A DNA stretch of 64,000 nt, taken from Kineobactrum sediminis (GTDB taxonomy: Bacteria > Pseudomonadota > Gammaproteobacteria > Pseudomonadales > Halieaceae). Each line of letters opens with the position of its first letter. Within the stretch, counting starts at the first letter, position 1. The DNA is taken from NCBI RefSeq assembly GCF_002868715.1, contig NZ_PKLZ01000011.1:89823-153822 (forward strand). Direction: 5' to 3'. Made by a program: the position numbers and the translations under genes. Positions 18,101-28,849 of this stretch are shown in pieces. The notes beneath the pieces were generated by a model that saw only the letters and a list, made by a program, of their open reading frames with translations, did no database searches and had not been told where the DNA came from.

Positions 18101-20113
18101 ATGAAGTGTTTTCAATGCCTGCCGTACTTGCTCGGGCTTTCAGTGGCGGCAGCCGGTGCAACCGACGTCAACGATCATGACCTGATGAAAATCATGGTTC
18201 AGGGCAAATCCACTGCGGAGCTACGACAACTCGTAGAGCAGCATGGCGGCACAATCACCCACGATCTGCCCATCATCAAGGCCATCGGCGCTACGGTAAG
18301 CGCTAGCCAGCTTGAACAGATCCGCATCTCATCGCTCGTTTCAAGAATCATTGATGATCTGTCAATGGACATTTCGGAACCGGAAGTCCCACCAGAGCGA
18401 GCTGACTGCGATATCGGCGGAGCACTCGAAGCAACCCTGGAGAATAATAGCCTTCAGTGGCAGCTGTTTAACAAGCAGGAGAAGCCGGCAAAGCTACAGC
18501 ATATCGAGCTGGGCTGGCCGACCATGCTGGGAGCAGTCGTCGCAGCAAAAATCGACCAACAGGATTTGGCTTTACCGATACCTTCAACTGATACCGGGCC
18601 AACGCAAACCGCTAGCGCACACTATGAAGCAACCCATGCGCCTGCCCTCTCTGGAATTACGACATTCCAGCTCCGTTTTGAGCACCCCCTCAACGAACAC
18701 GGCAAAGCCCCGCGCTGGCAGCAAAGCGACTTCAGTATCAAACTGGAATTTGCCGGCGGCTGTAGTACCAAGTTGATACCGGGCTATCCTGATTATGAAG
18801 CTGACACCTATTATCCGGGCATCGTTGGCGCAGACGCGTTACATCTGCATGGTATTAGAGGTAAGGGCGTAACAGTCGCGGTGCTTGACTCAGGACTATG
18901 GGAGCACCCCGCCCTGGCGTATGACACCAACGGCAATCCGCGCATTGTCGGTCGCTTTGATGCCATCAACAATATTGAAAATGCTGACGTTTTTGATGAC
19001 AGCGGCCACGGCACTCATATGACCAGCGTGATTGCTCATAGCGGGGAGGTCTTCAGCGCTGGCGTAGGCAATGGCTCCTACAAGGGAATCGCACCAGACG
19101 TAAAACTGGTGGCAGTAAAGGCGTTCGATGAGCAGGGCCAGGGTGAATTCCTGGACATCGTGCGCGGAATTCAGTGGATCGTGGAACAAAAAGACGTTCT
19201 TGATATTAAGGTACTGAACCTCTCGTTTGCGGCGCGTCCCCGATGGCCCTATTTCCTGGACCCAATAAACCAGGCACTCATGCAGGCCTGGGCCGCCGGT
19301 ATAACCGTAATAGCCGCCGCAGGTAATGAAGGTCCCGAACCAATGACAATTGGCTCTCCTGGAAACCTGCCTTACCTCATCACTGTGGGCGCTGTTACTG
19401 ACTCCTGGACAACTACGGACCGAGACGATGACTACATACCGGATTTTTCGTCGCGAGGCCCAACACCAAGCGGGCACATCAAGCCGGATATTGTGGCACC
19501 CGGAGGGCATATCGCAGGTCTCATGCGGCCGGGCAGTAAACTGATGCAAAAGCATCCTGACTACCTGATAAGCACTGGTGAACTGGTAATGACCGGAACA
19601 TCGCAAGCCAGCGCGCTGGTTTCCGGTATTGCAGCCCTGCTATTGCAACTCGAGCCTGAGCTAAAGCCTGATGATGTCAAATGCAAACTGCTCAGCAGCG
19701 CGGACTTGGCTATCAACCGTGATGGAAGGCTCTCCTACAGCCCATTCCAGCAGGGCAACGGCTATGTGAACGCAGTTCGTGCAGTAACACTTGGCCAGCG
19801 AGGATGCGGCAACCAGGACATGAACATCCAACGCGATATTGCAGCACAAGAGCACTTTGAAGGTCCCGCAATCATGGATGAGAAAGGCAACGCTACTCTT
19901 CCAGGCCTGAACAGGATGCTCTCACCGACGGAATCAGAAAAAGGTCTTAGCACCGACCGCAAATGGGGGATCAAGGCTTATATTGAAAGAAAAGACGCCG
20001 CAGAACCCAGCGGTGACCTCCCCTTCCACTGGCTGGAAATCTATCTTTCAGAAAAATCCACGATCGAGTCACTTTCCACAAATCCACCACCAAATGACAC
20101 AGCCAGCCCCTAG
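18101..20113 (+). CDS. Exported S8 family serine protease (subtilase) with I9-like propeptide
   Basis: This 670-residue protein starts MKCFQCLPYLLGLSVAAAGA, a plausible signal peptide. Residues about 30-95 (IMVQGKSTAELRQLVEQHGG...) resemble the inhibitor I9 propeptide of subtilisins. The catalytic triad is Asp263 (VAVLDSGLW), His303 (DSGHGTHMTS) and Ser501 (MTGTSQASALVSGIAALLL), with the oxyanion Asn in AAAGNEGP. About 170 residues precede the catalytic domain without recognised similarity. The C-terminal tail includes RKWGIK, which resembles the core of the repeats in the next gene. The ATG at 18101 directly follows the TGA of the REC-GGDEF-EAL gene. Its proximity to a secreted repeat protein suggests that protein as a possible substrate, which is inference. 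Confidence 0.88.
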   Translation: MKCFQCLPYLLGLSVAAAGATDVNDHDLMKIMVQGKSTAELRQLVEQHGGTITHDLPIIKAIGATVSASQLEQIRISSLVSRIIDDLSMDISEPEVPPERADCDIGGALEATLENNSLQWQLFNKQEKPAKLQHIELGWPTMLGAVVAAKIDQQDLALPIPSTDTGPTQTASAHYEATHAPALSGITTFQLRFEHPLNEHGKAPRWQQSDFSIKLEFAGGCSTKLIPGYPDYEADTYYPGIVGADALHLHGIRGKGVTVAVLDSGLWEHPALAYDTNGNPRIVGRFDAINNIENADVFDDSGHGTHMTSVIAHSGEVFSAGVGNGSYKGIAPDVKLVAVKAFDEQGQGEFLDIVRGIQWIVEQKDVLDIKVLNLSFAARPRWPYFLDPINQALMQAWAAGITVIAAAGNEGPEPMTIGSPGNLPYLITVGAVTDSWTTTDRDDDYIPDFSSRGPTPSGHIKPDIVAPGGHIAGLMRPGSKLMQKHPDYLISTGELVMTGTSQASALVSGIAALLLQLEPELKPDDVKCKLLSSADLAINRDGRLSYSPFQQGNGYVNAVRAVTLGQRGCGNQDMNIQRDIAAQEHFEGPAIMDEKGNATLPGLNRMLSPTESEKGLSTDRKWGIKAYIERKDAAEPSGDLPFHWLEIYLSEKSTIESLSTNPPPNDTASP

Positions 20114-20419
20114 GGTACCCATTCGGGTCATGCCCGCAGAACAACAATCTCCCATGACGAAATAGCGCCTACAATCAAGAACATAGGAGACTTTATTTAC
20201 CAGATTTCGTAAGATCCACCCCCATGACCATCCGTAATGGTCTACCCCCTACCCCAAAGAGGGTATAGACCACCCTTCATTAGCACTCGCCTCCCCCCTA
20301 TAACGGTTGCATGCGTCTACGGACCACGATGCATAACGCCTCTCACGGACGAGATTGGGCTGGACCACGATGTCACGACAAGTGACGCGAATTTTTGAAC
20401 GAAAGAGGCAGGGCGGATT
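20114..20419. other. 306-bp intergenic region before the repeat-peptide gene
   Basis: No gene is visible. The first half contains a GC-rich hairpin at 20239-20271 (GGTCTA...TACCC / GGGTATAGACC, with a CCCCC bulge) that could end the subtilase transcript, although no U-run follows. The second half has two 11-bp direct repeats and a small inverted repeat, listed separately. AGGCAGGG at about 20408-20415 is a good ribosome binding site for the ATG at 20420. Confidence 0.5.
20321..20386 (+). promoter_or_regulatory. Direct repeats and inverted repeat in the repeat-peptide promoter region
   Basis: GGACCACGATG occurs at 20321-20331 and 20362-20372. The 41-bp spacing is about four helical turns, so both sites would face the same side of DNA. 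The second copy runs into GTCAC-N5-GTGAC (20372-20386). They sit 34-99 bp before the start codon of the repeat-peptide gene. They are candidate operators for an unknown regulator, perhaps one downstream of the neighbouring phosphorelay. Confidence 0.4.
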
Positions 20420-28700: not shown

Positions 28701-28849
28701 CACCGGAATCGGGAGGCATGACCATTATCGCGAGCGCCGTGGCGTCACTGAATGGCGAGATTGGTTTTGAAGAAAACTCCAGGACCAACCTCCTGGTCAC
28801 GTTTCAAGTACCATGGACGCGAGAGCCAGGGTCATCACCGATTACCTGA
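25724..28849 (+). CDS. Membrane sensor kinase with periplasmic propeller and Y_Y_Y domain
   Basis: This 1041-residue protein is a second propeller sensor. It has a signal peptide (MKYRRYYILLSLLISTSAIA), at least a dozen blade motifs (for example LWIGTYEGLCF, IWVGTYNGLYV, LWIGTRSSGLH), a Y_Y_Y domain (RYRYKLIGFDPDWIDIG...FRVQAVNAAGVWN, about 700-765) and one membrane helix at about 770-792. The cytoplasmic part is not a classical HisKA. It resembles the HisKA_2/LytS-like group, with a possible phospho-acceptor His834 in DSFHFYNKELL and an ATPase with ECLDNSLAHAF, DNGIGIP and GGMTIIASAVASLNGEI. There is no receiver or HPt domain. It follows the hybrid kinase by 48 bp. The N-terminal two thirds are AT-rich, while the part after about 27640 is closer to the genome average. 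Confidence 0.87.
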   Translation: MKYRRYYILLSLLISTSAIAESRDLSDNKSNKFENLKIYKNGLSSELAEKSITFFHRDNTGRVWTGTQTGLYLYEGQQTSSFSPKNKNEYFAPALDITGMSEDSAGSIWISTYSSGISKYSEVRKRFERVDFSPRRGVTSLVSMGNSLLVYKEDRFLKVVDTSISESLKWLDSAQTSLGISKIDRFYKTSDNRILALTSDGFLRIDFLSKSIERLSVDLDNKSLNDRERIHISVESLFSSEINSMINESSNRTHANGDRGFSNIGSVTDIKIFRGLIFVGTDSGLFIFDEQIRHLYTFKRENSSLSNDHVTRLFVDNETLWIGTYEGLCFLLSSNFQTINSVSAGINDEVLIFTEDYFSNIWVGTYNGLYVIEKGAGHHVNLVELYPEFSLPDFRIMSIESVAEELWIGTRSSGLHILDLITGTKIHHSVANNDNFEITKIQHLPNETTLIGSYNNGLYRLDPGYDESGGKSYGATKLLDIKVTLIEPIKSKNSVLIGTENKLFFYDLKTDTISEIEVDFGLDDITPIMTVIHETSEGAFWIGTQSHGVYLADMLSPSESVINLKPLFEDTLLSTSAIYSAEIDNNDRTWVSGSEGLFLILADGSFARRFTKLDGLQGNKFNFGSSFKDSNGQLFFGGSRGYNRFNPDSITAYIPRPAIGFTKVTLEKSINNPKLIAKDLQSIILSHKDHFITFEFSALELIDPQSTRYRYKLIGFDPDWIDIGSRRTATYTNLPAGDFEFRVQAVNAAGVWNREGITMDLKVKPAPWLTGWAFTLYGILVVMLIIIWHRIYRAYAIKDEALRHAKKMQDIADRYADDLQEQVEFQGKLTDSFHFYNKELLARAYEGIDAGLVFSLAGEDLSGKRLLRRLRVFDLLQDALYYHGEQLYANLRTFTDHLAAYLEGYYGEAGRKLTVINDIPNDVMPAAHAVSCAIIIAECLDNSLAHAFPAEKAACFVRIGLTTTAEPIMKKDQVVLHYQDNGIGIPTGLAFDAPESGGMTIIASAVASLNGEIGFEENSRTNLLVTFQVPWTREPGSSPIT

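Follow-up and report, generated by a model that had tools for sequence, protein, structure and literature searches.

A candidate self-recognising peptide-signal locus with a subtilase, a tandem-repeat protein and propeller sensor kinases in Kineobactrum sediminis

In a 64,000-nucleotide stretch of Kineobactrum sediminis DNA (the window; positions 89823-153822 of contig NZ_PKLZ01000011.1, in a genome of 4.06 Mb) the gene of an S8-family subtilase (S8) starts 1 bp past the stop codon of a REC-GGDEF-EAL gene and is followed by the genes of a tandem-repeat protein (REP) and of two propeller sensor proteins (HK1 and HK2). Judged from the gene sequences, this locus may well be a self-recognising peptide-signal system, in which REP would be cut by S8 and read by HK1, with a change in cyclic di-GMP (c-di-GMP) as the outcome. 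Since the repeat units have fixed ends, the subtilase gene adjoins, the precursor and sensor genes vary as one block and c-di-GMP domains are adjacent or fused, such a signal appears to be the best explanation of the arrangement. In the mechanism proposed, REP would be exported and S8 would cleave it, on the C-terminal side of an Arg or Lys in every unit, into short peptides ending in W-x-x-R. The propeller of HK1 would bind a peptide of this origin, and phosphotransfer to the REC-GGDEF-EAL protein would then change c-di-GMP. Export was judged by eye, from the hydrophobic N-termini of S8, REP and the two sensors.

The variable block and the matching of repeat core and sensor type

In some pairs of close relatives REP and the sensor genes diverge together, as a block, whereas the neighbouring genes of the protease and the c-di-GMP enzyme remain much alike. 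In two genomes of genus g27, G067 and G070 (G and L numbers denote genomes and loci), the REC-GGDEF-EAL proteins are 100% and the S8 proteins 92% identical, and the corresponding values are 39% for the HK1 sensors and 33% for the REP pro-regions. Their DNA is 96.4% identical over 8226 bp, ending about 40 bp within the REP open reading frame (ORF), after which only pieces of the repeat match; the contig of G070 ends before HK2 and the far edge is unreadable in this pair. When G067 was compared with G065 and G027, similarity was lost at the start of REP and regained inside HK2, just beyond the propeller. The HK2 identity between G067 and G027 is 0.22-0.31 over the first 700 residues and 0.67-0.78 beyond them. 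When G159 was compared with G015 and G160, similarity ended at the REP start or a little ahead of it; short patches persist in HK1 and HK2, and the alignment resumes within HK2 for G015 and past it for G160. Between G068 and G071 it ends at the REP start, the G071 stretch itself ending soon after. The pair G027 and G065, which is of the same type, aligns along its whole length. Similarity of the window to G001, a genome of the same genus, ends at 19921 and resumes at 28866, with patches between them at 23633-23816 and 27788-27957. A variable precursor-sensor block in conserved surroundings, as in the agr system, was found in five genome pairs, those of G067 with G070, G065 and G027 and those of G159 with G015 and G160.

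Clustering of 40 HK1 sensors at 45% identity gave a group of six, type A (G000, G017, G026, G067, G068 and G159), which spans five genera. The core GYRWGIR is present in all six type A genomes and in none of the 34 others, and outside the core the REP proteins of the type A pairs compared share 27-38% identity or cannot be aligned. On the smaller REC-GGDEF-EAL tree the sensor type and the core each change six times, and the four supported independent pairs all agree (p 0.125). In the larger set, to which G066 and G071 were added and from which three long-branch rows were dropped, both traits change seven times and all six supported independent pairs agree (p 0.031); since the type A group and the 45% threshold were chosen after the pattern had been seen, this p value serves only as a guide. 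G066, examined with the pattern already in view, has an HK1 of type A (57% identical to that of the window) and its cut-off REP reads GYRWGIRNV. Since the block and the match of type A with one core resemble the specificity groups of pheromones, REP would most likely yield the peptide ligand of HK1.

Distance matrices were also compared. For the repeat unit and S8 the partial r was 0.45 in the full set (0.53 with the catalytic domain) and 0.13 (p 0.14) when the g6 and g12 clades were left out, and this relation was rejected. The value for the unit and the HK1 sensor without the same clades was 0.18 (p 0.03). For the seven-residue core and the sensor, given the kinase and REC-GGDEF-EAL, it was 0.07 (p 0.23) in all 40 genomes; dropping g6/g12 gave 0.18 (p 0.03), and dropping type A in addition gave 0.07 (p 0.29). 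None of these values serves as main support. A tracking of the repeat unit by the HK2 sensor was likewise considered and found unsupported.

Conservation of the gene order and forms with repeats on the subtilase

The sequence-only reading had placed the protease, the YRWGIR-repeat protein and two propeller sensors on one strand directly after a REC-GGDEF-EAL gene, with which the ORFs and the Pfam domains agree (Table 1), and had proposed a gene-neighbourhood comparison as a check. This comparison was made, and the genes were found to be kept together across the genomes of the family, which is probably Halieaceae. S8 matches are present in 84 of 140 family genomes (63 of the 78 good ones), and REP matches in 24 of 58 sampled genomes, all of them among the 37 family members and none among the 21 others. 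At the cut-offs used, REP and this S8 each have one match in their own genome. Inspection covered the loci of all 84 S8-positive family genomes and two loci from elsewhere. The 84 divide into five cis forms, in which the subtilase itself carries the repeats, and 79 loci of the trans type.

A REC-GGDEF-EAL gene lies directly upstream of S8 in all 78 readable trans-type loci, with a median gap of 2 bp (at most 30 bp in 75 of them), and a relative of the window's GGDEF-EAL protein stands one gene before S8 in many family loci, not in all. The repeat gene is downstream of S8 in 63 of the 68 trans-type loci that could be judged; 11 further loci end before the REP position. The five loci without repeats are those of G002, G117, G089, G104 and G091, the last being unsure because of an unreadable residue in the ORF. 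For HK1 the count is 43 of 50 trans-type loci, the gene following REP no more than 3 kb from S8; an HK2-like gene comes next in 32 of 43. The seven loci without a nearby HK1 belong to G002 and to six genomes of genus g6, five of which keep HK1 elsewhere in the genome, away from REP. HK1 matched in 65 of the 140 genomes, and S8 also matched in 64 of these; the remaining one, G019, has a completeness of 87%. In G002 (L055) an enoyl-CoA hydratase gene directly follows S8, and neither REP nor HK1 was found in that genome.

Table 1. Positions, in window coordinates, of the features of the locus
Feature	Position	Strand	Basis
GGDEF-EAL protein	14488..16197	+	Pfam GGDEF and EAL
REC-GGDEF-EAL protein, candidate output	16291..18099	+	Pfam Response_reg, GGDEF and EAL
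S8 subtilase, predicted exported	ATG 18101 to stop 20113	+	Pfam Peptidase_S8, 9.4e-49
S8 catalytic D263, H303, S501 (presumed)	18887-18889, 19007-19009, 19601-19603	+	invariant in alignment
RKWGIK motif in the S8 tail, like a REP unit	19958..19975	+	xWG[VIA] survey, alignment
REP, repeat protein, 195 aa	20420..21007	+	ORF, repeat finding, homologues
39-bp tandem array coding GYRWGIRNVSGQA-type units	20744..21003	+	repeat finding
HK1, propeller sensor and hybrid kinase	21152..25675	+	Pfam, PDB relatives, sensor type A
HK2, propeller sensor and HATPase-like half	25724..28849	+	Pfam; HATPase_c below cut-off
Variable block: REP, HK1, HK2 sensor	20420..27790	+	edges transferred from other family pairs, approximate in the window

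In the cis forms the repeats and propeller proteins are often found together. The subtilase of G007 bears 56 copies of the NAGNYW type, with an HK1-like kinase adjoining, a second propeller protein and REC-GGDEF-EAL nearby, and no REP between S8 and HK1. Copies of YFFND or VWND are carried by the subtilases of G009 (8), G080 (8), G081 (7) and G032 (6). In G009, G080 and G081 the repeat-bearing subtilase lies between a propeller-GGDEF protein (Reg_prop, Y_Y_Y and GGDEF being confirmed by Pfam in G009) and an EAL protein, and the G032 locus is truncated upstream of the subtilase. In two genomes of another family, 12-residue units like GYIWNMSDADNA and GFIWNLSSPENA were seen in the subtilase tail.

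Among the 120 listed out of 252 homologues of such a repeat-tailed S8, the active-site motif could be read in 103, and 75 of the 103 bear repeat tails. In named genomes at least 544 relatives were met, from which 78 loci were retained, 74 of them with W-rich repeat tails; a propeller ORF lies within 6 kb in 33 of the 78, and in 17 of the 31 where both flanks exceed 6 kb. In these scans propellers were counted by motif patterns and not by profiles, and the greedy choice of ORFs hid some genes of the opposite strand. The W-rich subtilase tails (L118-L195) have a period of 6 or 12, many of them ending near a WVxQE-like motif, and the records span Gammaproteobacteria, Acidobacteriota, Chloroflexota and others; since nearly all are metagenome-assembled genomes, some of the taxon labels may be wrong. 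The class was sampled with 369 genomes: S8 matched in 4 and the propeller sensor in 8, and the 4, which include the window's own genome, are all among the 8. The two genes are adjacent in three of them and on different contigs in G527, where S8 lies at a contig end. The S8 tail of G535 has W-rich pieces without a regular array. It is plausible that the REP units descended from S8 tails, an ancestry whose inference is limited by the shortness of the units.

The repeat protein, the subtilase and the sensors

The YRWGIR repeat noticed by the sequence-only reading is real: repeat finding gave 6.7 copies of 39 bp with 90% matches. REP consists of a predicted signal peptide, a pro-region with degenerate units and seven 13-residue units, and the last of its seven GYRWGIR cores ends at the stop codon. 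Of the 63 repeat genes of the family, 52 are complete, and the other 11 run into a contig end. W-x(1-2)-[RK] stands at the stop codon in 47 of the 52 (the others are those of G001, G142, G144, G153 and G160), the last unit thus closing the gene as in the repeat precursor of the Kex2/alpha-factor kind, and in 50 the end is at most four residues from W. Among 61 genome consensus units 51 have R or K as the third residue past W; W itself is fixed by the unit-finding procedure. Between copies within a gene the ratio of synonymous to non-synonymous codon differences is 576:67 just after W and 374:66 at the conserved Q, compared with 249:436 and 191:367 at two linker positions; the differences in the core are mainly synonymous, so that selection holds the core, and the linker to a lesser degree. 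The number of repeats varies.

REP has no Pfam family at E 0.001 and no NCBIfam family, and its organism-named homologues, few in number, come from Parahaliea, Haliea and Halioglobus. The structure model is weak, with a mean predicted local distance difference test score (pLDDT) of 60.5 and about 73 within the repeats (41.6-50.3 in the other four models), and a fold search with it gave no match at E 0.001. No tailoring enzyme is among the six proteins scanned with Pfam, the genome not having been searched for those of ribosomally synthesised and post-translationally modified peptides. An inverted repeat, CCGACTAGCTA / TAGCTGGTCGG, was seen by eye after REP at 21024-21054 and is absent from the terminator scan list.

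The residues of S8 which we take, by their motif, to be its catalytic triad are invariant among 60 aligned S8 proteins, and the S8 model has a mean pLDDT of 92.7 and a predicted template modelling score of 0.93. The protein falls below the curated NCBIfam scores for mycosin (129.3 against 278.75 bits), PatA (41.8 against 421.05), QhpE (43.5 against 165) and IteS (33.6 against 900). W622 is kept in at least 90% of the 60 aligned proteins, and xWG[VIA], resembling a single REP unit, occurs in the final 110 residues in 72 of 77 closed trans-type S8 of the family (L031-L117). The five without it are a frame-shifted S8 in G001 (L035), split over two frames by a frameshift or a sequencing error, and four short ones. 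A subgroup of four genomes, G100, G089, G117 and G104 (L112-L115), has a short S8 of 482-493 aa, and there a repeat-free ORF of 92-112 aa with a QWGS motif replaces REP (one is cut by a contig end). Three further ideas on S8 were rejected. Lipoprotein anchoring had a loose motif in just 9 of 87; the cleft residue 379 goes with the residue two before W in 53 of 56 genomes, an agreement that reflects no more than 2-3 independent changes; and an acidic residue at 410 showed no independent agreement with the basic third residue after W.

HK1 had been read as a hybrid propeller kinase, and Pfam calls Reg_prop, Y_Y_Y, HisKA, HATPase_c, Response_reg and Hpt in it, the last two at the C-terminus, with no AraC-type domain called. 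In joining a sensor of Reg_prop and Y_Y_Y to a hybrid kinase HK1 is like the hybrid two-component systems of the Bacteroides type, but it is unlike them at the C-terminus, where they carry an AraC-type DNA-binding domain. The HK1 sensor matches the solved hybrid-kinase sensors PDB 4a2l, 3v9f, 3va6 and 3ott. For HK2 the propeller part of the same reading holds, with Reg_prop and Y_Y_Y called; HATPase_c scores slightly too low, with 24.8 against a cut-off of 26.4 bits, and HisKA is uncalled. A perfect 9-bp tandem repeat, TCGAGATAA, in 9.1 copies (25222-25303) codes for an RDN-rich linker between REC and Hpt of HK1, and among the HK1s in the locus tables a 3-residue period was flagged for that of the window only. 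The G+C content is 0.40-0.44 across HK1 and HK2 (22000-28000), compared with 0.53-0.60 over most other parts of the window, and most relatives have a similar dip there: HK1 is poorer in G+C than S8 and also than REC-GGDEF-EAL in 41 of 42 genomes, all but G089, and HK2 is so in 33 of 34, all but G160.

Alternative explanations and biological meaning

The sequence-only reading had suggested a secrete-process-sense circuit feeding c-di-GMP. The co-occurrence, the cis fusions, the GGDEF and EAL domains on or beside propeller sensors and the match of type A with its core indicate more than adjacency and favour such a circuit. The suggestion is thereby supported in part, with the cleavage of REP by S8, the binding by a propeller and the change in c-di-GMP as its predicted steps.

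Several observations weigh against a self-recognising peptide signal. The smaller tree offers only four supported pairs, and outside type A the covariation of core and sensor is insignificant. Since REP and HK1 adjoin, a single exchange can shift both and could do so without any functional match. Among 52 database homologues of REP, 34 end in W-x-x-[RK], 2 have another residue there and 16 end otherwise; several of these 18 are partial. In the cis forms Arg or Lys is often missing after W, thus the cut site would differ there. G002 retains S8 without REP or HK1, and G063 carries the GYRWGIR core, yet no HK1 was found. The HK2 sensor does not follow the unit core and differs even between the type A genomes G000 and G068; HK2 may respond to a different part of REP or to some other ligand.

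The weak, beta-solenoid-like model of REP also leaves room for a structural role. The locus could be a module of the biofilm matrix, with REP and the W-rich tails of the subtilases as structural or adhesive beta-solenoid repeats that the subtilase would trim or release; the propellers would sense matrix polymers, c-di-GMP would set production and the variation of the block would be surface diversification. The beta strands within the repeats in the best of five REP models, the adjoining c-di-GMP enzymes and the varying repeat number suit this account, but the model confidence is low, no fold was matched, and neither the W-x-x-[RK] ends of REP nor the pairing of HK1 type A with one core is predicted by it; we consider it rather unlikely. 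It is improbable that the aromatic repeats dock the subtilase on a propeller for regulated proteolysis of the sensor or another partner, REP being an adaptor, a competitor or a product-like subtilase inhibitor rather than a hormone. The repeats on the subtilase in the cis forms and the unit-like RKWGIK retained in the S8 tail would fit such docking, whereas the varying number of units and the fixed C-terminal end suggest a multi-copy precursor, and no cut sensor is known.

Glycan pieces are the ligands of the hybrid-kinase sensors in Bacteroides, and the nearest solved relatives of HK1 are sensors of this kind. The locus could serve in nutrient sensing, with the subtilase digesting environmental protein, the propellers sensing breakdown products or glycans, REP as a co-regulated exported protein and the block varying through diversification and linkage. 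The block edges fall at the REP start, however, and identical cores go with the same HK1 type in five genera in spite of the divergence of the remaining REP; we hold nutrient sensing to be slightly less probable still than docking.

The peptide-signal reading can be compared with known systems. HK1 resembles the propeller-sensor hybrid two-component systems named above in its sensor sequence and in being a hybrid kinase with REC; it differs in ending in Hpt, and a subtilase and a repeat gene adjoin it. Staphylococcal agr likewise has a variable precursor-and-sensor block between conserved neighbours, and the coincidence of the type A sensor with one core may correspond to the matching of sensor and signal there, whereas the present locus is Gram-negative, with propeller sensors, a subtilase in the place of AgrB, a REC-GGDEF-EAL neighbour and a signalling role that is putative. 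With yeast alpha-factor and Kex2 it shares tandem copies in an exported precursor, the last copy at the stop codon and an S8-family protease, but here the protease gene adjoins the precursor gene and the cleavage of REP is a prediction. LapA-LapG-LapD also combines c-di-GMP domains with an exported protease and a repeat protein; the protease of the locus is of the S8 family and not a LapG cysteine peptidase, for which the genome was not searched, nor was LapD sought. In Xanthomonas oryzae, GdpX2 and GdpX3 have a Reg_prop/Y_Y_Y propeller fused to GGDEF, as in G009 (PMC6637768). In that survey of Xanthomonas c-di-GMP proteins, Reg_prop/Y_Y_Y are periplasmic sensor domains of unknown function, and the sensor function of GdpX2 and GdpX3 is called unknown as well (PMC6637768).

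No description of a system of this kind was found among the listed results of a search of open-access literature, most subscription journals lying outside its scope. With somewhat less assurance than for the locus itself, we suggest that it could represent a Gram-negative peptide-pheromone system with pherotypes, in which a subtilase would cut a tandem W-x-x-R precursor, the propeller kinases would distinguish the peptide of their own type from foreign ones and the output would be c-di-GMP, and that it could be the trans form of a multi-phylum cis module with GGDEF, EAL or kinase propeller sensors. The locus supplies a candidate genetically encoded ligand for propeller sensors and a candidate maturation protease, and G067 and G070 carry natural ligand and receptor alleles in nearly identical backgrounds, thus the proposal is testable with a short synthetic peptide. 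If true, it would mean a processed-peptide route into Gram-negative c-di-GMP control and a new use of subtilases.

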